IMG/VR virus record: IMGVR_UViG_3300025645_000071
Coordinates: 1-63,180 of that record
Direction: 5' to 3' (one strand)
Length of the DNA: 63,180 nt
Source of the DNA: a virus
Shown piece after piece: positions 38,252 through 51,365 of the stretch. The first letter of the stretch is position 1, and each line of letters opens with the position of its first letter. The notes below the pieces were generated by a model. It searched no databases, was not told the origin of the DNA, and saw only the letters and a list, made by a program, of their open reading frames with translations. The translations under genes and the position numbers were made by a program.

Positions 38252-41200
38252 ATGGAAGAAGAAGAGATCTTACAATACATTGAAACTCAACGTAATGGCG
38301 GCATGGCTGACAATAAAATCGGTATGCAATTACAGATGAAGGGGGTATCCAATTATACGGACTACTTAAAAAAAAAAGACGATACTTCAGGATCGCCCTC
38401 TGCTTCGGACGAGGAAGATACGGAATCAACGCAGAATACACCTATTCAGGGAGGACAAGGAGCTGGTTCTTCGGTTTTACCTGTAACACAAAATGATCCC
38501 ACTGTAAACACTCTTGTTAATGGAGAGCCAGATTTATCTATTGACCCTCTTACTGGTCAGGTAATACAGCCTTGGACAGATACTCCTGCAAATAGACAAA
38601 GATTAGAAATTGATCCAGTTCATTACGATGGATTTCAAAAAGCTGGATTTATTAAAGTTATGGAGGGATTAGACCCTTCGTATATAACACCAGAAATAGA
38701 AGCATCTTTTTTTGATTTTGCATCTAACAGTGGTCAATGGTGGTGGAATTCTGTTGGCGGGAATGTTGATGCTATATCAGCAGAATTAGCAAAAAATGAT
38801 GAGTATCTTTCTACCGCAGGTATTGAGGTGTCACCTACATCAACAGAATTTGGTGCAAACCCTATGTACATGAGTAATCTTCAAGGCTCAGGAATGGTTG
38901 CATCAATGCCTTTTATACCTAACCTTCCAAAACAAAAAACTGAAGAGCAGATAGCGTTTGAAAAAACAACCGCTGTAAAAAAATATTTAACCGAACAGCT
39001 TAATAATACAGTCGTAGAGTCTCTTCAAAGTAATATGCCAGCAGATATTAGCGGGAGCGAAGAAGCCTTGCTTTATATGGAGCAGTTTATGTTAGAGAAT
39101 TATGGCTCTATGCTTGATTTAACTGGTGAAGGCCAAGTAGGAAACACCCCTTTTTTACAATTTGACGGTTTTGAACCTAGCGGTTACATTGGTGCAGGTG
39201 GTTCAGGATATAGACCTAAATTTTCAGGATATATTGTAGACAAATTTGACGCTGCAGGTATTGATGTAATAAATGGAATTTACAATATGTTTGGGGGTGA
39301 CGCAAAAACAGTCGTTGAAATGAGAGAGAAGGCTGAAGAACTACGTGCAAACACTCTTCAGTTCACAGAAAGCATGAGTGGTAGTTTTACAGACGGTCAG
39401 TTTAAGAACGGCATGATGCAAATGGGTGGTTTTGTTAGTGAAGCTGCTCCAACTATGGCAATATTAATACCAGCAGCTACAGTTACTACAGTTGCCACTG
39501 GTGGAGCAGGCGCTCCGTGGTGGGTTACTGCGGGTATAATAGGTTTAGAGGGGGCGACATTAAGCACTACTATAGAAGCAGCAAGAACTCGTGAACACCC
39601 TATGTTTAAAAGGTACACAAAAGATGGTGTTACTATAGGGCATTATGAAATGATGGAAGCTACGGGAGGTGATCCAGAGTTAATGGCTAATTATGAAGAA
39701 AGTTTTGACGACTCAGCAAGAATGGGACATCTTAGTACTGTCTTTGCAACTGACTTTGTTGCTAGTGGTGCTACATCATTGTTCTTCTTTAAAGCTTTAA
39801 AAGGAGCTGGTATGCCTACCAATGTAGGGCCTAATATGAATGGATGGTGGAATGCTCACTTAACCAACATGGGGGTGTCTGTACCAGTAAATAGTGTTAC
39901 CGCATCTACCGCAGCTATGGTGCAATACATGAGCATGAATCCAGAAGCAACTCAAGACGAAGTTTTTGAAGTTGGAATGGATGTAGCTTTAGGTGTTGTT
40001 CCAATAACCTTAGGCGCTAGTGGAACTGGTTCTGCAATTAATTATGTTAATACAAAAGCGCAAATAGTAAATGCTTTAGCTAGAGACGCAGTTGGTAGAA
40101 GCGGAGGTAATGTCAGGATAAATCAACAACGAACACAATACTTAGAGACACTTAGAAATAGCAAGGATAATAACGCTGTAATCCATGCTGAGAGAATGTT
40201 GGTTCAATTAGAAGAGCAAAAACTCAGCACAATGGCTGCTGATGAATCATTCTACTTAAGAATGAATCCAGAGGACTACGAAACTATTGTAGGTCTTCAC
40301 AGAGATTACAATTCTTTGTTGCGTCAATTAAATCAAATGGATGACCCAGATTCACCTATGGGGAAGTCTTTGAAAACACAATTAGACGGAATTAAAGAAA
40401 AGAGGCTTAATATAGAAAAATTATACGAAGTAGATGAATCTTCAATTGGAGATCCTACTATGCCCCCACCAGACATATTTGAACCTACAGTAACTGGGCC
40501 TGACGGAAAACCAACTCCATTAGCGTTTACACCTGGTTTATCTAAATGGTGGTATACTGAATTCTTTGATAAGTATGGGGATGTAAATTCACTACAAAGG
40601 TCTATTATGGAAGCCTTAGACACAGATAATACGGGTAAGAGAATTGAGCTTACTCAAGACTTTGAGGTGTTGCAAAAACTATCTACATCAAAGGCTGCTT
40701 TTCAGATTGAAGAAATGGTAAGGCTTAGGACTCAAGATGGGGGGTTAATACCTCAGTTACGAGAATTACAGAGAACCACATCTTCAGATCTGTACGAAGG
40801 GTTGCCAGATGTCTACGATAAAAACATTATAGGCCTTTATGATAGATGGGCTGTATCAAAATTTGCCCCAGAAAGAAACGCAAAAATTCTTGCTGACAAT
40901 CAAGCAGAATTAACTGCGTTAAAGTCTAAAGAAACTTTATCTTCTTCAGAGAAAAAACGAATAACATTTCTTGAAGAAAAAATTGCAGAAAGAAGAGGTA
41001 GTGGTATGGCTGACGAAGAAGCTGCCAGCTTTTTAAATTCCCTACCCGATGAACTAAAGGCTTCTTTTGAAAAAGTAAGAGAGGAGCATAGGTCGATTCA
41101 ACAAAACACTAGAGATGCTGCTTTAGAGTATGGTTTTATAGATCAGGCCATGTACGATAAACTTCAAACAACAGCTGAAAACTATGTAACCCTTACAGGT

Positions 41201-43510
41201 GATGGCATGAATTCTGTTGATGGAAATCTAACGTTAATTGATAATGATATAGTTCAAGCTATATTCCCACAAAGAGCTTCACAGGGTGGAGTGCCTGATA
41301 GCTATAGAAAAGCTTCTGGTCGTAGTGATGAGACTGGTAGTATATTAGGAAAAACTATAGATCAAAACACACAGGTACACGTAGCAGGACAAAAAAACGT
41401 AGCTCTTAAAGGGTTATATGAAATGTTATTAAACAATCCAAACTCTAAACACTACTCTATATCTGATGAAGGCAATTCAGCAGCTAAAAATACAGTAATG
41501 GTTTATGTAAATGGAGAAAAAAAGTTTATTACGTTTGCTAACGAAGCTTATGCAAAGCCTTTTAAAACTCAAGCTCCTAGCGATAACGAATCATATGTTA
41601 GGATTGTTCAACCTATGCAAAGATTATTTAGTAATGTACCTAAAATGTACACGCAATGGTCTACTACATTCTGGGCAGGTAATAGTGTAAGAGATTATCA
41701 ATCTTCTATAACAAACGCAATAAGCGCAGCAGAACAACAGTTTGGATATGCTTTAAATAACGCTGAAGGTCAACCCATAAATATAAAGCAGTTAGTTTCA
41801 GACTCTCACCTTTTGGGTAAAGGCGAGTACATACGTGCTTTTAAAGCCATCGCTAATGATGAGTTTGGTCCAGGCGGTGATATGCGAGGCCCAGAAAACG
41901 TGCTATACCAAGAGTATAAAGCTCATGGAGGAAAGACTGGATGGGCTTATAGAACGCCTTTACAAGATTTGTCTAAGCAATTGGCAGGCGAGATAGACGA
42001 TGGAATAAGAGGGCAAAAAGCTACACAATGGATGTATGACAATAGCTTAGGTCTTATTGAGTCTTTTAATAATACGTTTGAGAACGTCTTTAGATTTCAA
42101 GTATATAAAGGTTTAAGAAATCAAGGGGTTGCCCCAGACTATGCCGCAGCTGTAGCAAAAGACGTAAGTATAGACTTTAATAGATCGGGTAATACTACAC
42201 CGATGTTAAGCTCTATGAAGTTCTTTTTAAATGCTGGATTGCAAGGCGCTGACATGACCGTAAAGACTTCTACTGCATTAAAACCTAAAGTAGATGTTGA
42301 AGGAAATGTAAGAAACCCTATACAAAGATTAACGAACGCTCAGAAACTCCTAGGAGGAGCTGTTGGTTTTAGTTATATGTTGACTAATTTCAATCAATCT
42401 GTATCAGAAACAGATACGGACGGGGTTACTTTTTACGACAAGATTCCTGATCAAATAAAACAAAGAAATCATATAATGATGATTCCTGGCAGTCCTACAG
42501 GAGAAAAAGTTCTTATCCCTAAGGCTTATGGGTTTGGGGCGTTCAATGACTTAGGCGTTATGTTTGCTGAGGTTCAAAGCGGAGAAAGAGATCCTGCAGA
42601 CGCAGCTTTATATTGGGGCTCTTCTGCTATAACTAACATGTCCCCAGTACATTTTGGAACCGTAGGGGGTTCAGACGATCCGACAAAGTCTGTTAATCCA
42701 GTATCAACACCAGGCGAAATTGTTAGAGAGATTATTACTCCAGACCCTCTAGCCCCAATCATTGACGTTGCTACCAATGTAGATGGTTTTGGGAATACTA
42801 TAGCTGCAGAAGAAAAACCTGGAGTGGCTAGATCTTCTCAGGGGTATGATTCCCCAATTATTTTTGAACAGATTGCTCAGATTTTAAATTCAGCTACTGG
42901 TAGTGATGAGATAAGTGGACCTTTAGATTTTAACCCAGACCAATTAAACTATTTAATGCAAAGCTATTTAGGAAGTTCTTATACGATGTTTGGTGACGCA
43001 TCTGAAGGCATCTTGCAGGTGACTGCTGGGCAGGATCACGTAGACACATGGCCTATGATAAAGAAGTTTTATTCTGAAGATTTTGAATATTCAGCTTATG
43101 GAAAGTATTACGATAGCAAACAAGTTGTAAATTCATACTTAGCAGAATTTGGCAACGTAGAGGACCTTCTTGAAAATAAAGACAAACCTCTACCTAGTCG
43201 TGATGAAAGACTTGCTGATTATGCAGCTACAGAAACGGAGCCAGGAGGTGCTGCAACAAGGTATGGACATGCTTTAGGTATGGCTGAATTATTTTCAGAT
43301 ATTGAAACAGACATGAGAGAGATTACTGAAGCTAAAAAAATATTGCAAGAAAAACAAAGCGATCTAGGTTATCACATGTTTAACCTTGAGGTGGCAGACG
43401 AATGGGGAGGATTAGAAGATAAAATCTACAAACTAGAGCAAGCTGAAATGCTATTAATGGAAAAAGTTCTAAAAGAATATTATAAATTTTACAGAAAACC
43501 TGAAGAATAA
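38252..43510 (+). CDS. Giant ejected protein with LPD38-like region, 1,752 aa
   Basis: N-terminus LQYIETQRNGGMADNKIG, then Ser/Pro-rich linker to about 100. Residues about 400-440 hold a hydrophobic pair (MAILIPAATVTTVATGG, WWVTAGIIGLEGATL) that could insert in membranes. The middle has long coiled-coil helices (about 600-1000). From about 1230 to 1500, a pattern with NTFENVFRFQVYKGLRNQG, AKDVSIDFNRSG and RNHIMMIPGSPTG resembles large polyvalent protein-associated domain LPD38. The role, delivery through the host envelope on infection, is inferred. Confidence 0.55.
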   Translation: MEEEEILQYIETQRNGGMADNKIGMQLQMKGVSNYTDYLKKKDDTSGSPSASDEEDTESTQNTPIQGGQGAGSSVLPVTQNDPTVNTLVNGEPDLSIDPLTGQVIQPWTDTPANRQRLEIDPVHYDGFQKAGFIKVMEGLDPSYITPEIEASFFDFASNSGQWWWNSVGGNVDAISAELAKNDEYLSTAGIEVSPTSTEFGANPMYMSNLQGSGMVASMPFIPNLPKQKTEEQIAFEKTTAVKKYLTEQLNNTVVESLQSNMPADISGSEEALLYMEQFMLENYGSMLDLTGEGQVGNTPFLQFDGFEPSGYIGAGGSGYRPKFSGYIVDKFDAAGIDVINGIYNMFGGDAKTVVEMREKAEELRANTLQFTESMSGSFTDGQFKNGMMQMGGFVSEAAPTMAILIPAATVTTVATGGAGAPWWVTAGIIGLEGATLSTTIEAARTREHPMFKRYTKDGVTIGHYEMMEATGGDPELMANYEESFDDSARMGHLSTVFATDFVASGATSLFFFKALKGAGMPTNVGPNMNGWWNAHLTNMGVSVPVNSVTASTAAMVQYMSMNPEATQDEVFEVGMDVALGVVPITLGASGTGSAINYVNTKAQIVNALARDAVGRSGGNVRINQQRTQYLETLRNSKDNNAVIHAERMLVQLEEQKLSTMAADESFYLRMNPEDYETIVGLHRDYNSLLRQLNQMDDPDSPMGKSLKTQLDGIKEKRLNIEKLYEVDESSIGDPTMPPPDIFEPTVTGPDGKPTPLAFTPGLSKWWYTEFFDKYGDVNSLQRSIMEALDTDNTGKRIELTQDFEVLQKLSTSKAAFQIEEMVRLRTQDGGLIPQLRELQRTTSSDLYEGLPDVYDKNIIGLYDRWAVSKFAPERNAKILADNQAELTALKSKETLSSSEKKRITFLEEKIAERRGSGMADEEAASFLNSLPDELKASFEKVREEHRSIQQNTRDAALEYGFIDQAMYDKLQTTAENYVTLTGDGMNSVDGNLTLIDNDIVQAIFPQRASQGGVPDSYRKASGRSDETGSILGKTIDQNTQVHVAGQKNVALKGLYEMLLNNPNSKHYSISDEGNSAAKNTVMVYVNGEKKFITFANEAYAKPFKTQAPSDNESYVRIVQPMQRLFSNVPKMYTQWSTTFWAGNSVRDYQSSITNAISAAEQQFGYALNNAEGQPINIKQLVSDSHLLGKGEYIRAFKAIANDEFGPGGDMRGPENVLYQEYKAHGGKTGWAYRTPLQDLSKQLAGEIDDGIRGQKATQWMYDNSLGLIESFNNTFENVFRFQVYKGLRNQGVAPDYAAAVAKDVSIDFNRSGNTTPMLSSMKFFLNAGLQGADMTVKTSTALKPKVDVEGNVRNPIQRLTNAQKLLGGAVGFSYMLTNFNQSVSETDTDGVTFYDKIPDQIKQRNHIMMIPGSPTGEKVLIPKAYGFGAFNDLGVMFAEVQSGERDPADAALYWGSSAITNMSPVHFGTVGGSDDPTKSVNPVSTPGEIVREIITPDPLAPIIDVATNVDGFGNTIAAEEKPGVARSSQGYDSPIIFEQIAQILNSATGSDEISGPLDFNPDQLNYLMQSYLGSSYTMFGDASEGILQVTAGQDHVDTWPMIKKFYSEDFEYSAYGKYYDSKQVVNSYLAEFGNVEDLLENKDKPLPSRDERLADYAATETEPGGAATRYGHALGMAELFSDIETDMREITEAKKILQEKQSDLGYHMFNLEVADEWGGLEDKIYKLEQAEMLLMEKVLKEYYKFYRKPEE

Positions 43511-43941
43511 TGAGTAAGAAAATAAAAGAAACAAAACTAGGTGCTTGGTTAAAAGACAAAGCGCCTCAAGTATTAGGCGTAGTAGGAGACCTTCTCCCAG
43601 ATAGCGGTGGATTAGGAATAGTAAAAAACCTTATCGATCAAGATCCAAAGGTTGACTCTGAAGAAGCGCAACGTGTAATTGATGCGGAGGTACGCTTCCA
43701 AGAGAACGTCACAGAGCGATGGAAGGCGGATATGGGTAGCGACGTAAAGTTAGCTAAAATGATCCGTCCAGTAACGCTTATATGCCTTATGGCGATGTTT
43801 ATGGTTACTATGTTTATAGACAGCATGGATAACGTAGCATTTAATGTAAAAGACTCTTATGTATCTTTGCTTGAGTTATTAATGCTTACAGCGTTTGGTG
43901 CATACTTCGCTGGAAGAACTATAGAAAAGAAATCTAAGTAA
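43510..43941 (+). CDS. Holin, 3TM-type-like, 143 aa
   Basis: Residues about 80-97 (RPVTLICLMAMFMVTMF) and 118-135 (LLMLTAFGAYFAGRTIEK) are transmembrane. The soluble N-terminus has amphipathic helices, and the RP-x-T-L-I before TM1 and G-AYFAGR in TM2 fit the GTA-holin 3TM family. It would open the inner membrane for the lytic enzymes. These lie 40 kb away at 2.1-5.2 kb, so lysis genes are split. Confidence 0.65.
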   Translation: MSKKIKETKLGAWLKDKAPQVLGVVGDLLPDSGGLGIVKNLIDQDPKVDSEEAQRVIDAEVRFQENVTERWKADMGSDVKLAKMIRPVTLICLMAMFMVTMFIDSMDNVAFNVKDSYVSLLELLMLTAFGAYFAGRTIEKKSK

Positions 43942-46157
43942 TGATCCGTAAAGTACTAACAACCTTTGTTTTAAGCCTGCTTACTTTAAGTAGTGCTTTA
44001 TCTCAGGGTAGCTGGCTTGATGTTCAAATTCAAACAGATCAGTATGCTGGAGAAAGTTCTTGGCAAATACTTAGTAATTCAACGGTTGTAGCTGTGAGCC
44101 CTCCACTACAAAATAGTACTTTACAGAATTACATGGTTTTTTTACCAGCAGGCGATTATGAATTTATAATGATGGATTCTTTTGGTGATGGGATATGCTG
44201 TGGGTTTGGTGAGGGTTGGTATAGGATAAGTAATACTTGTGGTTTAGATACAGCGGTGTATGATTTTGACACAGCGCTAGACACTATACCTTTTACTTTG
44301 AACCCATGTATACCGCCAATTCCTGGCTGTACTGATCCAGTATCTAATAATTATAATCCTTGGGCTAATATTGACAATGGTAGCTGTAATGTGCTTGAAT
44401 GTGACTCAGCTGAAACTTTTGTTTCTATGGATTTGACATTAGATACGTGGCCTGGTGAGACTGGGTTTACGTTGGTTGATATAGCTAGTGGAGAGTTCTA
44501 TGATCAAGTTATACCTGGAGAGTTTGACTTTAGTGATCAGTCAGTTACGTACACTTACGATTTTTGCGTAAGCTTAGGTTTTGAGTTGATTTTAGTAGAT
44601 GAGTTTGGAGATGGATTAAATGGATATGCTTCAGGAGGACAAGACGGGGCGTGTGTAATAACGTCTTGCGATAGTATCATATGGGAGTTAGAAGATTTAG
44701 CATTTACTGAATTTGATGACGGTAATACAATGTACTCTGGTGCTATATTCCCTGAACCATGCCCACCAGCACCGCCTATTTACGGGTGCATGGATGATGA
44801 TTATGTAGATTACAACCCAGACGCTGAGTTGCCAGATACTTGTGAGACATTACATACGTGGGGCTGTACTAATCCTGAAGCATTGAATTACGACAGCACT
44901 GCAACTATAGCAGATCTTGTAGGCCCTTGTACAATACGGATAATACTAGAAGACGATGCTGCAGATGGATGGGGTAACTCTAAAATAGGCATGGTGCAGG
45001 GAGAGCAACAGTGGTTATTTACTGTAGGTCCTGGTGAGTTTTATCAGTCTTGGGATATTGTACTTGATTCAGATGAAGAGGTGGATATATATTACTTCCA
45101 AGCTGGTAATCAACAGCAATCGTCTCAAGAGCTTGCATTCCAAACACTCCATAATTCTGTACACGTTCTTAATGAAGCGGGAGACACTTTATTGTCTGAA
45201 GGTAGCAACCCTTTTATAAACAATGGTCAGAGTGCACTTCAACCATTTACAGGGCCAAATTGGACAGTTTATCACTTTACTCCTTTCTGTGGTGACAGCT
45301 GCATACCTTATGTATATGGGTGTACTGATGAATCAGCATGTAACTATAATTTAGAAGCTAACACAAACTCTGATTGTAATTATCCAGTCCAATATTATGA
45401 TTGTTATAACGCTTGCGTGAATGATGATGATAGTGATGGTGTGTGTAATGAGCTTGAAGTTGTTGGCTGTCAAGATCCTATGGCTTTTAATTATAATGCT
45501 TCAGCAACTGACGCTGGTGATTGCATTCCAGTAATATTTGGATGTACCGATCCAACTCAATTTAATTATAACCCAGAAGCTAACACAGAAAATGGAGGTT
45601 GCGTACCGTTTGTATATGGATGCATGAATCCAGACGCTTTTAATTATAATCCAGACGCTAACACAGAGCTTGAAGACTCTTGCATTGAAGTGGTTGTTGA
45701 TTGCATGGATCCTGATGCGTTTAATTACAATGAGTTAGCCAACACTGCTGATGAAGAAACTTGTTTATATGACGCAGGTTGTATAGGTGGTCCTGGCGAG
45801 CCATACTGGTTAAACGATGGATGTTATGCTTGGATCATAGATGTTGACCCATATTGTTGTGAAGTTGAATGGGATGGAGCCTGTATTGAGCTGTATGATT
45901 ATTGTGAGGCTGGATGGCCTACTGGTGTATATAATATACATGATGTATATAATGTATATCCTAATCCAGTAACAGATGTTTTAAATATACAAACCTCCTT
46001 AAATATAGTTACAGAGGTATACAATGTGTTTGGGCAGCTTGTAGTGTTTGGTACTAGAGAAAAGAGAATTGATCTTAGCAATCTACCCAAAGGCTTCTAC
46101 GAAGTTGTTATAAATTATAACGGAAGAATTGTAAATAAGAAAATTATAAAGTCATGA
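43941..46157 (+). CDS. T9SS-exported Cys-rich repeat protein, 738 aa
   Basis: Signal peptide (residues 1-22: VLTTFVLSLLTLSSALSQ). Then come beta modules with DSFGDGICCGFGEGWY and DEFGDGLNGY, typical of flavobacterial surface proteins. About eight repeats follow of type GC(T/M/Q)DPxxxNYNPxAN...C (for example GCTDPTQFNYNPEANTENGG). The last about 70 residues are a T9SS type A sorting domain: VYPNPVTDVLNI, VYNVFGQLV, DLSNLPKGFYEVVI, NKKIIKS. The product should cross the inner membrane by Sec and the outer membrane by the host T9SS, then be anchored or released. Host origin and a role at the cell surface are inferred. Confidence 0.88.
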   Translation: MIRKVLTTFVLSLLTLSSALSQGSWLDVQIQTDQYAGESSWQILSNSTVVAVSPPLQNSTLQNYMVFLPAGDYEFIMMDSFGDGICCGFGEGWYRISNTCGLDTAVYDFDTALDTIPFTLNPCIPPIPGCTDPVSNNYNPWANIDNGSCNVLECDSAETFVSMDLTLDTWPGETGFTLVDIASGEFYDQVIPGEFDFSDQSVTYTYDFCVSLGFELILVDEFGDGLNGYASGGQDGACVITSCDSIIWELEDLAFTEFDDGNTMYSGAIFPEPCPPAPPIYGCMDDDYVDYNPDAELPDTCETLHTWGCTNPEALNYDSTATIADLVGPCTIRIILEDDAADGWGNSKIGMVQGEQQWLFTVGPGEFYQSWDIVLDSDEEVDIYYFQAGNQQQSSQELAFQTLHNSVHVLNEAGDTLLSEGSNPFINNGQSALQPFTGPNWTVYHFTPFCGDSCIPYVYGCTDESACNYNLEANTNSDCNYPVQYYDCYNACVNDDDSDGVCNELEVVGCQDPMAFNYNASATDAGDCIPVIFGCTDPTQFNYNPEANTENGGCVPFVYGCMNPDAFNYNPDANTELEDSCIEVVVDCMDPDAFNYNELANTADEETCLYDAGCIGGPGEPYWLNDGCYAWIIDVDPYCCEVEWDGACIELYDYCEAGWPTGVYNIHDVYNVYPNPVTDVLNIQTSLNIVTEVYNVFGQLVVFGTREKRIDLSNLPKGFYEVVINYNGRIVNKKIIKS

Positions 46158-46336
46158 AGATAGATTGGATAAACAGTTGGAATGCTGGTAACAAAAAAGA
46201 AAAGTATGAGATCAATATAAGAATAGGTACGGTTACTGTACTTGAGATTTCATTTTGCCCATGTCCTGCTTGTGAAAAGAAAGGTCATTGTAAAAGATTT
46301 AGATTTATGATTTTAAACTTTGGTTTTGAACTATGA
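46154..46336 (+). CDS. Small Cys-rich protein, 60 aa
   Basis: Contains FCPCPACEKKGHCKRFRF, four Cys in a cluster that could bind a metal. Lies between the T9SS cargo gene and the outer-membrane gene with ATGA overlaps at both ends, so it is translated with them. Function unknown. Confidence 0.6.
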   Translation: MKIDWINSWNAGNKKEKYEINIRIGTVTVLEISFCPCPACEKKGHCKRFRFMILNFGFEL

Positions 46337-47430
46337 TGTCTCAAGAAGCAAATAATATTAAAAAAAGGTATAGAATTTACGAATTGATTCTTTACAGCGT
46401 TATTATGCTTGTAGTTTTTTTATTAGGAACAATTGACGTACAAGGACAAACTTTAAAAAAAACACTTAAGTTTGCTACATTTTACACAGCGTTTAGCGGT
46501 GGAAACTCTATAGCTGACGACAATATATACTCTATAACAAATGGGTTACAGACTGATATATTAAAAACTCCTTTTGATTATTCATTTACAGCTGGTGTAC
46601 GTAAAATTGCTAGATTCGGATACGAAAATAGAGCTAATGTGTTTTATGACGGAACAGAAAAGTCGTACAGCGATGCCGCTACGGTGGGTAAAGTAAAAGG
46701 CTTTGAGTTCTTATTCGAGGCGGACTGGCGTAGACAGCAGGGAACAAACTTCCTGGATCAAAATCATTTCCTGAGATACGTAGCTAAAAACTGGGTGACG
46801 AAGGTAGAGTATGTGCAGGACGGGTTTGCAGACGTTCAGTATTTTGAAGGTTCACAAAGGGGGAGATTAAAGATAAATGATCACCTTAGCTTTAACTTAG
46901 GGGTGGCTCAGCGTATATCTGAGCCTTACGGTTACGATGCTTTGGAGGAGTGGATGCTCTCTAACGGGAACTTACATTATACCAACCTAGCTATACAAGA
47001 GGGGTATACAGTTGATGTCCAGAATTCCGTGTATTATGAACCTAATGGCGATATATGTGCAGAGAGTTCTGATGTATGGGAGCAGGTTGTTATACCTGTA
47101 GTTTTAGATGACTACGTTTCTCGTAAAAGATCTGAGCTTCCGAACCAATGGAACTACTCTATGGTGGTTGGGTACGACTATTATAAATACTCTAAGGACT
47201 TCTGGTTTCATAGCTGGGCGGGTGTAATGCCTTACCATTTGCGGGTTGACAACGAATACTCTTATTTCGAAGCAACGGATGGGGCGCAGTGGGTGGATTA
47301 CGCTGGAGGCCTTATCTTTGGCTGGAGATTAAACAAGAGCCTCGGAATATTTCTTGAGGGAAAATATAACAAATACTGGAACAGGGAATGGCACGATTTC
47401 TCTGTTGGACTTAACTACGTAATATTATAA
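46333..47430 (+). CDS. Outer-membrane beta-barrel protein, 365 aa
   Basis: Hydrophobic signal segment at residues about 16-36 (LILYSVIMLVVFLLG), with VQGQ as a likely cleavage region. The mature part alternates aromatic and polar residues in many strands (RFGYENRANVFYDG, FEFLFEADWRR, WNYSMVVGYDYYKY) and ends GLNYVIL, a typical barrel C-terminal strand. No TonB box seen. Codons from about 46,680 on are more GC-rich than the surrounding genes, suggesting acquisition. It may alter receptors or cause superinfection exclusion; this is inferred. Confidence 0.7.
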   Translation: MMSQEANNIKKRYRIYELILYSVIMLVVFLLGTIDVQGQTLKKTLKFATFYTAFSGGNSIADDNIYSITNGLQTDILKTPFDYSFTAGVRKIARFGYENRANVFYDGTEKSYSDAATVGKVKGFEFLFEADWRRQQGTNFLDQNHFLRYVAKNWVTKVEYVQDGFADVQYFEGSQRGRLKINDHLSFNLGVAQRISEPYGYDALEEWMLSNGNLHYTNLAIQEGYTVDVQNSVYYEPNGDICAESSDVWEQVVIPVVLDDYVSRKRSELPNQWNYSMVVGYDYYKYSKDFWFHSWAGVMPYHLRVDNEYSYFEATDGAQWVDYAGGLIFGWRLNKSLGIFLEGKYNKYWNREWHDFSVGLNYVIL

Positions 47431-47432
47431 AA

Positions 47433-47717
47433 ATGGCAAAGCAGATTGGAGAGGACACTAAAGTAACATTTGACCTAAAAACTATAGGATTAGGGGTGGC
47501 AGGGCTTGCGGCCCTTATTGGGATGTGGTTTACACTACAAGCAGATATAGCATTAGCTAAAGAATTGCCAGAGCCTTCTGATCCAGAAATTACACGTATG
47601 GAATTTGACATGAAAGATCAATTAGTAAGACAAACTATTATGTCTACACAAGAGGATGTTTCAGAACTTAAAACTGATTTAGATCGTATTGAAGAAAAAA
47701 TAGATAAACTAAAATGA
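47433..47717 (+). CDS. One-TM coiled-coil protein, 94 aa (XhlA/spannin-like)
   Basis: TM at about residues 17-36 (TIGLGVAGLAALIGMWFTL) and a C-terminal coiled coil (DVSELKTDLDRIEEKIDKLK). This pattern fits XhlA-type lysis accessories or inner-membrane spannin-like proteins. It overlaps the next gene by 4 bases. The lysis link is inferred from shape. Confidence 0.55.
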   Translation: MAKQIGEDTKVTFDLKTIGLGVAGLAALIGMWFTLQADIALAKELPEPSDPEITRMEFDMKDQLVRQTIMSTQEDVSELKTDLDRIEEKIDKLK

Positions 47718-48052
47718 AAAATTTAATCTACATATGTTTGTTTGCAGCTATATCTCTTGGTATGGGTATACCAGACTCAGGTGTTTGTGTCGTTGAGTTT
47801 AACGCAAGTTTTAATGCAGATAACAGTGTAGATTGGATAGACGAGTTAAGCGATTGCAAAGGTAGAAGGGTTGACATAGCTATTAATCCTGATTTACAAA
47901 AACAACATAAAATTGTAGTAGTCCCTACTATAATTGTATTTAATGATGGAGAGGAAGTAGAAAGGTTCCAAGCAAACATTATGATGCAATTGGAAGCTAC
48001 TAAAAACGAAGTGCAAGACGCTGTTGATGAAATCATAATGAGTAATTTTTAA
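47714..48052 (+). CDS. Exported thioredoxin-like protein lacking CxxC, 112 aa
   Basis: Signal peptide-like start (NLIYICLFAAISLGMG). VVEFNASFNADNSVDWIDEL stands where thioredoxins have the active-site WCGPC. VVVPTIIVFNDGEEVERFQA supplies the cis-Pro strand and following turn of the fold. Without the CxxC it cannot be a normal thiol oxidoreductase; a binding or chaperone role in the periplasm is more likely. Two Cys remain (residues about 25 and 48). Confidence 0.6.
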   Translation: MKNLIYICLFAAISLGMGIPDSGVCVVEFNASFNADNSVDWIDELSDCKGRRVDIAINPDLQKQHKIVVVPTIIVFNDGEEVERFQANIMMQLEATKNEVQDAVDEIIMSNF

Positions 48053-48363
48053 TGAAAGCTTGTAAGTGCGAACATAAAGAAATGAAGAAAGGAGGTAAGA
48101 CTCCTGCATGGACACGAAAAGAAGGTAAAGACCCGAAAGGTGGATTAAACCGAAAAGGTGTAGCTTCTTATCGTAGAGCTAATCCAGGCAGTAAGTTAAA
48201 GATGGCTGTTACTGGAAAGGTGAAACGAGGATCTAAAGCTGCTAAAAGACGTAAATCGTTTTGTGCTAGAATGGGAGGGATGAAAGGGCCTATGAAAGAT
48301 AGCAAAGGTCGCCCTACAAGAAAAGCTTTAGCTTTAAGAAAGTGGAAGTGTAGAAAAAAATGA
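48052..48363 (+). CDS. DUF6321-like basic protein, 103 aa
   Basis: CKCEHKEMKKGGKTPAWTRK, then GKDPKGGLNRKGVASYRRAN, SFCARMGGMKGPMKDSKGRP and ALALRKWKC match the DUF6321 pattern of small marine-phage proteins. Very Lys/Arg-rich with a Cys pair at the N-terminus. Possibly binds DNA or is packaged; unknown. Confidence 0.65.
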   Translation: MKACKCEHKEMKKGGKTPAWTRKEGKDPKGGLNRKGVASYRRANPGSKLKMAVTGKVKRGSKAAKRRKSFCARMGGMKGPMKDSKGRPTRKALALRKWKCRKK

Positions 48364-50495
48364 GGTATAGCAAGAGAAAAAGAAAAGGTACTAAAGTTAA
48401 AAAGTTAGCTAATGGAGGTAATGGCGACCCACCTAAAGGAGATCCGCCATACGTATCTCAAGCTTACGGAGGCTTTCCTTTATATAAAGAATTTGGAGAA
48501 CTAACTCCAACTCCAACAAGTGAATTTTATACAAAAGCTGAGGAAAGAGGATATTATGAGGGATTACCTTTGCTTTTACCAGAAGCAGAAGTTGTTGCAG
48601 AATCTACAAATCCTTTTGATTTATCTTCAATAGACAATGTTGTACGACAAACTGGAGCTGGAGTACTTGGTGATTATGCTAATATACCTGCAGATGTAAG
48701 GGAAGCATATGAAGCTCAAGTTACTCAAGGCATAAATGAGGGCGCTGTTTTAGCGGCTGTTGGCATGTCTCCACTATTAGCTATGGGCGCTGGTCCAGTT
48801 TTAGCTAGAGGTTTAGCAGGTTGGTCAACAATATCAAGTCTCCCATTAGTGTCTATGGAAGGGGCTGGATTGGTTACTGTTGGTCAGGCTGTGGATTTAG
48901 TTGGAGCAGGAATAGCTGTTGAACATGCTCCCAAACATGTAAGGGACTTTATAGAAGAGCCTTCAATTGGTGGTGGCGCTTGGCTAGGTCTTGATCTTTT
49001 GGGGTTAATGATGGGTGGCTCTGCTGCTAAAAGTATATATACTCAAAGCTTGAGGGCTGGTGAAAATTTAACAACTCCTATGACCTTTACTTCTGCCGTT
49101 AATTTAGGTGATGAGGCGATTATAGCAGGTAAACTAGATGAAGCTACAGTGCTATTCAACAGAGTCGTAAAGGATGAAATTTCTCAAATAGCTACTAGCA
49201 CAAAAATAAATGCAGCAGATAAACAAGCAGCGATAGACGAAGTCTTAGAGTTTTATTCAAACTACTTAAATAATCCTGCAGCTTTAGAAAAGCTTGTGGC
49301 TCAAAAACAAATGTTAGGTGGAGCAAAACAAGTTCCTATGTCTCCAGTCATTGCTGAAGAAGCGTCACTTCAGTCTTATATATACAACAAGTCTACACCA
49401 TATTACTCTGTGTTTGATGATGCGGGAGGAAGGATAGGAGCACATGTAGATCCTGCAACCCCCATAAGGTCTTTCACTTTAACTCCAACAGAAGTGTCTC
49501 CAGGAGTGTTTGAAGCCAAGGCCTCAGTTAGTTACTTTAGTAATACTACGCCAGGAAGACAAGCTGCAGCAGAAGCTTTGTTAGAAAACCTTAGAACTGG
49601 ATCTGAGTCAGCTAAAAATGCTGTTTTAAGAACTCAAGAGTATTTAAAACAAACTTATGGATATAGCGCTAGAGGTATAGCTAAACCACAACTTAATATA
49701 AGCGGCCAAGTTGATATGGTTGATGGTGTTGTAATTCCAGAAGGAGGGTTTTCAAGTTTTGATTTAAGTGCACAGCAGATTGAAATGCTTGAAACTTTAA
49801 CTCCAGAACAATTTGTTTCTACTTTGATTCACGAAACAAATCACAATATGTTAACTCCATTTTTAAATCAAATGGCTGATTTGCAAATTATGGAAATGCA
49901 TATGATCGGAGCTACAAATAGAATACCTCAATTCAGAAATGCAACACGAGTAGCTGATAAAAGTCTTGCCCCTGGATTTCACACGGCAGATGATATGGTG
50001 TCAGGCATTCGGGAGGTGTCAGCAAAATATAATAATCTACATCCAGAGTTTTCTACAGGAGAGCTTGACAGACATATAATGGAACTTCTTTTACCAGATG
50101 AAGGAATAGCTAGGTTATGGGAAATTAAAAAAGCATATTCAGCGCAAGCAGCAAAACAGGGTATGAGTTTTGAAGACTGGATGTATAAGTTTACACCAGA
50201 AGAAGCAGAGAAAGGCCTTAATGCGTGGAGAAACGGAAAGCAAGCAGGAGGAGAAAAGTTTATTGAAGCAGATTTATTTTTAGATCTTTTTCAAGGAAGT
50301 AACACAGAAGAGAAACTTAGAAGTTTAACTTCAGCTCTTAATGAAACATTCACTCCCCTTCCTGTAATTACAACTGCTGGGGCTGCTGCAGTTGCAACAG
50401 ACGCTGTTATCTCAGACGAAGAAACCCCCACGATTAATAAACGTGGAGGCTTCATATCAAAGAAAAAAAGACGTAAAGGTTACAGGTCTATATAA
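48360..50495 (+). CDS. Large HExxH-containing virion protein, 711 aa
   Basis: The N-terminus is Lys-rich with KKLANGGNG, like virion-tagged proteins here. Residues about 130-210 have hydrophobic helices (MSPLLAMGAGPVLARGLAG). HETNH at residues 491-495 in STLIHETNHNMLTPF is an HExxH zinc-peptidase motif. The basic end is KKKRRKGY. A second HExxH protein starts the late arm (2142). Possible envelope-degrading or maturation protease; activity not proven. Its stop directly abuts the stop of the opposite sigma gene. Confidence 0.5.
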   Translation: MRYSKRKRKGTKVKKLANGGNGDPPKGDPPYVSQAYGGFPLYKEFGELTPTPTSEFYTKAEERGYYEGLPLLLPEAEVVAESTNPFDLSSIDNVVRQTGAGVLGDYANIPADVREAYEAQVTQGINEGAVLAAVGMSPLLAMGAGPVLARGLAGWSTISSLPLVSMEGAGLVTVGQAVDLVGAGIAVEHAPKHVRDFIEEPSIGGGAWLGLDLLGLMMGGSAAKSIYTQSLRAGENLTTPMTFTSAVNLGDEAIIAGKLDEATVLFNRVVKDEISQIATSTKINAADKQAAIDEVLEFYSNYLNNPAALEKLVAQKQMLGGAKQVPMSPVIAEEASLQSYIYNKSTPYYSVFDDAGGRIGAHVDPATPIRSFTLTPTEVSPGVFEAKASVSYFSNTTPGRQAAAEALLENLRTGSESAKNAVLRTQEYLKQTYGYSARGIAKPQLNISGQVDMVDGVVIPEGGFSSFDLSAQQIEMLETLTPEQFVSTLIHETNHNMLTPFLNQMADLQIMEMHMIGATNRIPQFRNATRVADKSLAPGFHTADDMVSGIREVSAKYNNLHPEFSTGELDRHIMELLLPDEGIARLWEIKKAYSAQAAKQGMSFEDWMYKFTPEEAEKGLNAWRNGKQAGGEKFIEADLFLDLFQGSNTEEKLRSLTSALNETFTPLPVITTAGAAAVATDAVISDEETPTINKRGGFISKKKRRKGYRSI

Positions 50496-51365
50496 TTAAT
50501 TTAAATAGTTTATTAAGACCGTGTGACGAGATGAATGCTTGATTCGCTTCAAAGCACGTTCACGTATTTGTCTCACTCTCTCTGATGATAAATCAAATAT
50601 CTCTGATATCTCTGTATTAGATTTAGGGTGATCTCCGTCAAGGCCAAACGACAGCCTTAAAGTAGCGCTTTCTCTTGGGGTCAACCATCTTAGGCAAGAT
50701 TCTATTTCATGTCTTAAGCTTTCATTTAGCAGCTCTTTGTCAGGATCTAACGCATACTTGTCGGGCATAAGATCACCTACTCTGTTTGAACCAGCTTCAT
50801 CCTGAGATACAGGCATATCTAAACTTACATGTTTATTGGAATTTTTAAGAATTAATCTAACATCTGCTACATTCATGTTTAACTCTGCAGCAATTTCAGA
50901 CTCTGTAGGTGGTCGTTCATACTTTTGCTCAAGCCTTGAGTAAGACTGCTTGATTTTTATTAAGGCCCCTATTTTGTTTTGCGGCAACCTTACCATCCTA
51001 GAGTGGTCGGACAATGCAGATAATATATTTTGTCTAATCCACCACACAGCATACGAGATAAATTTAAAGCCACGGGTTTCGTCGAATCTTTTGGCTGCAC
51101 GTATCAGACCTAAATTACCTTCGCTAATAAGATCTGGAAGGCTTAATCCTTGATTTTGATACTGTTTAGCTACAGATACAACGAATCTTAAATTTGCTCT
51201 TGTCAGTCTATGTAGAGCTTGTTGATCGCCATCTCTAATTTTTCTCGCTAACTCTACTTCTTCCTTAACTGTAATTAATTCTTCTTTAGTAACGTCAGAT
51301 AAATATCTGTCTAGACTTGGCTGTGACCTGTCTGTTATTTGCTTTGTTATTTTAAGCTGTCTCAT
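50496..51365 (-). CDS. RpoD-like sigma-70 factor, 289 aa
   Basis: Region 1.2 (residues about 16-50, SLDRYLSDV), region 2 (about 58-125) with ANLRFVVSVAKQYQNQG, EGNLGLIRAAKRFDETRGFK and SYAVWWIRQNI, region 3 (about 130-210), and region 4 (about 225-285) with LTPRESATLRL and SSERVRQIRERALKRIKH. It lacks region 1.1, as does flavobacterial RpoD, which it resembles throughout, including the MRQLKITKQ start. It should direct host polymerase to TAnnTTTG promoters; late-gene control is inferred. It overlaps the DnaA-like gene by 14 bases. Confidence 0.9.
   Translation of the reverse strand: MRQLKITKQITDRSQPSLDRYLSDVTKEELITVKEEVELARKIRDGDQQALHRLTRANLRFVVSVAKQYQNQGLSLPDLISEGNLGLIRAAKRFDETRGFKFISYAVWWIRQNILSALSDHSRMVRLPQNKIGALIKIKQSYSRLEQKYERPPTESEIAAELNMNVADVRLILKNSNKHVSLDMPVSQDEAGSNRVGDLMPDKYALDPDKELLNESLRHEIESCLRWLTPRESATLRLSFGLDGDHPKSNTEISEIFDLSSERVRQIRERALKRIKHSSRHTVLINYLN

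Follow-up and report, generated by a model that had tools for sequence, protein, structure and literature searches.

The window (the whole stretch of 63,180 nucleotides that was analyzed) carries a predicted cargo gene of the type IX secretion system (T9SS) in a long collinear late region that also encodes a terminase, a portal and a virion structural protein. The ATG start of the cargo gene overlaps by one base the stop codon of the holin-like gene 43510-43941, and four short genes follow it downstream, at 46154 (60 aa), 46333 (365 aa), 47433 (94 aa) and 47714 (112 aa), all of which recur downstream of cargo relatives elsewhere (Table 1). Two large genes lie just outside this group. Upstream, on the plus strand, 38252-43510 encodes a protein of 1752 aa in which an LPD38 domain (large polyvalent protein) was identified with E = 1.6e-19; it might be an internal virion protein that is ejected. 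Directly after the group, also on the plus strand, 48360-50495 encodes a 711-aa protein with an HETNH (HExxH-type) motif, for which neither Pfam nor NCBIfam yielded a family match.

Table 1. Positions of the cargo gene, its domains and the neighboring genes in the window
Feature	Position	Strand	Basis or remark
Holin-like gene, immediately upstream of the cargo gene; neighbor, not cassette core	43510..43941	+	phrog_3427, E 5e-23
T9SS type A cargo protein, 738 aa	43941..46157	+	PF18962, TIGR04183, CTD fold
Predicted Sec signal peptide, residues 1-22, cleavage near ALS/Q	43941..44006	+	Sequence inspection, model helix
Eight GC(T/M)D-NYNP-AN repeats, interspersed with beta-rich FGDG-motif domains	44325..45764	+	
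Most conserved cargo block, residues 601-660, PYWLND-CYAW-D-YCC-WD-C, just before the CTD	45741..45920	+	
T9SS type A C-terminal sorting domain (CTD), residues 672-737	45954..46151	+	HMMs and fold
Conserved small protein, 60 aa, between cargo and barrel; accessory, not universal	46154..46336	+	27 of 101 distinct barrel loci
Outer-membrane beta-barrel protein, 365 aa; cassette core	46333..47430	+	AlphaFold2, Foldseek
Inner-membrane protein, 94 aa, one N-terminal membrane helix and predicted coiled-coil tail; cassette core	47433..47717	+	Conservation; 82 of 101 barrel loci
Secreted thioredoxin-like protein, 112 aa, without CxxC; cassette core	47714..48052	+	TIGR01068, E 8e-5

The cargo N terminus reads MIRK, followed by a hydrophobic stretch and ALSQ, and its AlphaFold2 model shows a helix at residues 2-20 (judged by eye). 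At the C terminus, the original prediction had placed a type A sorting domain and named the absence of any HMM hit as its refutation. Both models proposed for this check matched significantly, PF18962 from Pfam with E = 8.5e-12 (45.6 bits against a cut-off of 27) and TIGR04183 from NCBIfam with 36.3 bits (cut-off 23). Moreover, the predicted CTD superposed on 8glk_D, the CTD of the substrate NucA solved in a T9SS complex, with a TM score of 0.75 on the target and 2.2 Å, and a second fold match was found with 8glj_D (0.73). The cargo model as a whole, built with 26 relatives, was modest (pLDDT 69, pTM 0.30); outside the CTD, the fold search of the whole cargo yielded nothing beyond weak, generic beta-sandwich matches, and PHROGs had no match for the cargo.

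As a control for chance matches, the CTD HMM that we built was run on the 10,319 ORFs of the fetched loci, of which it matched 185. GCxD repeats were present in all but 7 of these proteins, and those 7 were cargo genes truncated at contig ends. No more than one CTD per record was observed in the 17 whole viral records searched; 15 had one, and the 2 without belong to a group with a short C terminus that is described below. On the strength of the profile matches and the modeled fold, the 738-aa protein is very probably a substrate of the host T9SS, its export itself being inferred. The original claim, that the phage encodes a T9SS cargo, is thus upheld by two HMM libraries, the fold, the phage operon context and conservation across viral contigs, whereas the cassette that surrounds this gene had been missed. 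The roles suggested along with that claim, namely receptor masking, a block to superinfection or altered attachment, are hypotheses.

The repeats, previously put at about eight, number exactly eight of the GC(T/M)D type, at residues 129, 282, 308, 460, 509, 534, 560 and 587. The composition of the protein is extreme, with 109 acidic but only 3 basic residues in the mature cargo minus its CTD tail, and the protein contains 37 cysteines. Calcium binding by such an acidic, cysteine-rich protein is plausible, with no binding data available. Conservation within the cargo is highest in the block of residues 601-660 (0.71-0.78, versus 0.34-0.49 in the CTD), and mean column identity is 35% for the cargo versus 65% for the barrel. 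The number of repeats differs among cargo relatives. We did not accept the repeats as a sign of T9SS, since the Synechococcus cyanophages S-CAM4 and ACG-2014j have a similar one in proteins with a virion structural annotation. GC(T/M)D repeats were also seen in large proteins without a CTD, probably virion fibers, on three viral contigs (L015:2-4645, L038:3-3041 and L130:5138-9643).

Among the partner proteins, the 365-aa product was modeled with about 12 strands (AlphaFold2, pLDDT 69), and its top PDB matches in Foldseek were outer-membrane barrels. It had no sequence relative above cut-off in PDB, Pfam or NCBIfam and no match in PHROGs; a viral protein in BFVD, A0A516LKJ4 (22% identity), is a possible distant relative. 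As a predicted outer-membrane barrel encoded beside a CTD cargo, it meets a carrier-like layout. Homology to the known carrier families PorP/SprF or PorV was nevertheless not supported: NCBIfam gave no match to TIGR03519 or NF033709, and HHalign returned probabilities of 5.9% for PorP and 0.6% for PorV. This test is weak, because the PorP-PorV control itself reached only 32.9% and the barrel profile is of low diversity. A host origin of the barrel was rejected as well, given that two Bacteroidota MAGs contained no copy outside their phage contigs and that the genome collection had it on only three contigs, all phage-like. A lipobox-like start was present in only 13 of 101 barrel proteins. The tail of the 94-aa protein is very conserved and coiled-coil-like, and its topology resembles that of an i-spanin. 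The 112-aa protein is thioredoxin-like and has the VVPT (cis-Pro) motif of that family; unlike thioredoxins, it lacks CxxC in all 90 relatives examined and therefore cannot perform dithiol chemistry.

Cargo relatives were found in 67 viral loci. For a linkage test without selection for the cargo, viral contigs were searched with the 365-aa barrel family alone, which had relatives in at least 596 viral stretches. In the best 80 of these, which were kept, a CTD cargo was present in 79 loci, directly upstream of the barrel in 76 and downstream in 3; cargo and barrel overlapped by 4 bases in 43 of the 76. Selection of 80 loci by the 94-aa family recovered the barrel and the 112-aa family in 79 each and a CTD cargo in 70, several of the cargo-less loci having truncated flanks. 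Some contigs belong to both sets, which are therefore not fully independent, and each set was limited to the closest relatives. Over 101 distinct barrel loci, the cargo was present in 100, the 112-aa family in 84 and the 94-aa family in 82; no other family exceeded 44. The cargo is hence part of a conserved cassette comprising the cargo, the barrel (46333), the coiled-coil protein (47433) and the thioredoxin-like protein (47714). Since it occurs at varied genome positions, in records of about 60 to 171 kb, the cassette behaves as a unit. That its four genes act together appears highly likely, although their joint function is inferred.

The original prediction had allowed that the gene might prove to be a chimera confined to this assembly, with homologues at the same locus as the opposite outcome. 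The latter was observed: cargo relatives occupy this locus in independent assemblies, and chimerism or host contamination could be excluded because contig L020, which stems from a different metagenome, repeats both the holin-cargo junction and the order of the downstream genes (holin-cargo-60aa-barrel-TM-Trx). In several other contigs (L100, L102, L103 and L104), tandem pairs of CTD cargo genes lie directly upstream of the barrel. Searches of isolated phages, within 50,697 phage records, gave no credible relative of the cargo, barrel, coiled-coil or thioredoxin-like protein; the CTD alone weakly matched two uncultured phage records of about 640 kb (E = 0.002-0.003).

A Bacteroidota host, which had been predicted from the restriction of T9SS to that phylum, gained support from two further genes. 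The phage has a sigma-70 factor (50496-51365, minus strand) that might redirect the RNA polymerase of its host; across 288 of 289 residues it shares 59% identity with a sigma factor of the Flavobacteriales MAG G001. The terminase matches phages of Flavobacterium, Cellulophaga and other flavobacteria, with 42-49% identity for the best listed. This MAG encodes SprA (2384 bits), PorV (433 bits), PorP-family proteins and about 42 CTD matches, and it includes a contig of a related phage. The host is accordingly given as Flavobacteriales by inference from sequence similarity, the true host being unknown.

Taking the cassette as a whole, we propose that the cargo is exported by the T9SS and held by the phage barrel so that the cell surface is remodeled against adsorption; we assign this explanation a probability of roughly 0.45, its function being untested. 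Sec would move the cargo, the barrel and the thioredoxin-like protein into the periplasm, where the host SprA/PorV translocon would recognize the CTD and export the cargo. The phage barrel would then hold the cargo on the cell surface, probably via the conserved cysteine-rich block before the CTD, and the two periplasmic partners might tether or regulate the complex from inside. The predicted parts would together span the envelope, with the cargo at the surface, the barrel in the outer membrane, one protein in the periplasm and one in the inner membrane. A long, acidic, cysteine-rich stalk could in this manner coat or remodel the surface, such that other phages and the phage's own progeny would be unable to adsorb.

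Anchoring by the barrel is argued by analogy: host T9SS type B adhesins are held by a barrel carrier encoded beside the cargo, as in SprB-SprF (PMC12618676, PMC12635249), and the phage barrel would likewise hold its exported cargo. In the absence of interaction data, we give this step an even chance. The blocking of adsorption is our leading candidate for the purpose because gliding adhesins exported by the T9SS may be receptors for phages and mutants in gliding genes show phage resistance (PMC13288928, PMC7345892), yet as an inference it remains the more doubtful part. Several observations speak against the proposal. The barrel has no detectable relation to the PorP or PorV families, albeit by a weak test, and distant members with a short C terminus miss the known CTD models yet use the same barrel. 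Exclusion genes are frequently early, but the cargo gene is located in the late region. Furthermore, PorV normally deals with type A cargo by itself, without a barrel devoted to it (PMC12618676).

A part in lysis is the strongest alternative to surface remodeling, because a holin-like or endolysin gene is found within 3 kb in 43 of the 101 loci (a count without a matched background control). The cassette would then be the outer-envelope part of the lysis system, in which the coiled-coil protein acts like an i-spanin and the barrel and cargo weaken or bridge the outer membrane, completing the work of holin and endolysin. Consistent with this are the topology of the 94-aa protein, the holin that adjoins the cassette and precedes the cargo in the window, and the amidase or M15 endolysins and holin-like genes close by in several other phages, with an amidase endolysin adjoining the cassette in larger phages, L041 (155.7 kb) among them, and on the MAG contig L071. 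As in the two-component spanins of Gram-negative phages, an inner-membrane coiled-coil protein is encoded near holin and endolysin in some relatives, but no small outer-membrane lipoprotein partner was recognized, its place being taken by the barrel and a T9SS cargo. Neither a holin-like nor an endolysin gene lies within 3 kb in 58 of the 101 loci, in many relatives the cassette is located between portal and capsid genes, and no known spanin employs a secreted adhesin-like protein, so that we regard a lysis role as unlikely, if still worth considering.

The cargo might instead jam or saturate the host T9SS, stopping gliding and the export of adhesins that other phages use as receptors, with the barrel as a decoy shuttle. 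All CTD proteins share one SprA translocon, and late phage genes are usually highly expressed. T9SS mutants also lose adhesins and some phages (PMC13288928), but overproduced type A fusions are still efficiently secreted in Flavobacterium johnsoniae (PMC12618676), and simple saturation is therefore improbable for type A. We consider it similarly improbable that the cargo is a secreted factor serving the infected population rather than an anti-phage device, for instance an adhesin that clumps cells or binds particles; its stalk-like repeat architecture does resemble host proteins with the same repeats, and T9SS-tagged enzymes are known from Cryophage (PMC7468147), but almost all relatives have a dedicated barrel and periplasmic partners, which implies that the protein is kept at the envelope instead of being released. 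Least credible by far is a virion fiber or structural component whose resemblance to T9SS cargo was inherited but is unused. The similar repeat of the cyanophage proteins annotated as virion structural and the repeats of the probable fibers mentioned above are in its favor, yet those proteins lack a CTD, whereas the cargo combines a predicted signal peptide with a CTD that divergent relatives retain, and its gene is linked to those of the barrel and a secreted thioredoxin-like protein.

Phage-encoded T9SS cargo as such is already known. Bellas et al. (2020, PMC7468147) described Cryophage genes of a Bacteroidota phage with T9SS type A sorting domains, proposed use of the host system and mentioned superinfection exclusion as an option; those genes encode a tagged endoglucanase, a GH39 protein and a PA14 protein in variable regions, in contrast to the Cys-rich stalk protein described here, with its conserved cassette and its own barrel. 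Cluster 2 of the crAss-like phages (de Jonge et al. 2019, PMC6949934) likewise has genes near the head genes with T9SS sorting domains, but these encode BACON-domain proteins and no barrel cassette was described. The pairs of a type B CTD protein with PorP/SprF, including SprB-SprF (PMC12618676, PMC9143113), share the order of a surface adhesin gene and, immediately after it, that of an outer-membrane barrel carrier; here, however, the CTD is of type A, the genes are phage encoded and the barrel has no detectable PorP/SprF or PorV homology. The cassette itself is apparently undescribed: we found no description in the literature searched, although subscription papers and preprints lay outside that search and absence is not proof.

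Whereas earlier phage T9SS cargo came from single genomes or clusters, the present genes form a conserved cassette core whose barrel has at least 596 viral matches. The cassette spans phages that clearly differ in genome size and layout, none of them a phage isolate that was searched, and it names three partner families of unknown function. These data suggest that the viruses carrying it rebuild the surface of infected cells, and they offer a concrete case, open to testing, in which viruses would exploit a phylum-specific secretion machine to that end. More tentatively, and at somewhat less than even odds, many marine Bacteroidota phages may share a portable four-gene envelope machine, which would rely on the host T9SS for one part, supply its own outer-membrane carrier and periplasmic partners, and provide a type A cargo with a dedicated barrel; it would then be a novel type of system by which phages remodel the cell surface. 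If the barrel proves to be a carrier, the carrier-cargo pairing of type B would extend to type A.

One cassette-bearing contig (L069) comes from a MAG labeled Candidatus Nitrosopelagicus, an archaeon, and is almost certainly mis-binned phage DNA. In a divergent group of loci (L057-L068), the cargo keeps the cysteine-rich block and is paired with the same barrel, but it terminates with a shorter motif to which the CTD models give no match. This motif of about 40 aa, VTDILGR...YSDGTVEKK, replaces the CTD in L057, L059, L060, L061, L063, L064, L065 and L068, and in the four proteins that were checked it was not matched by any NCBIfam model. It also ends at least 10 ORFs of the Flavobacteriales MAG G001, several of which have signal-peptide-like starts, and it may be an undescribed sorting or secretion signal.
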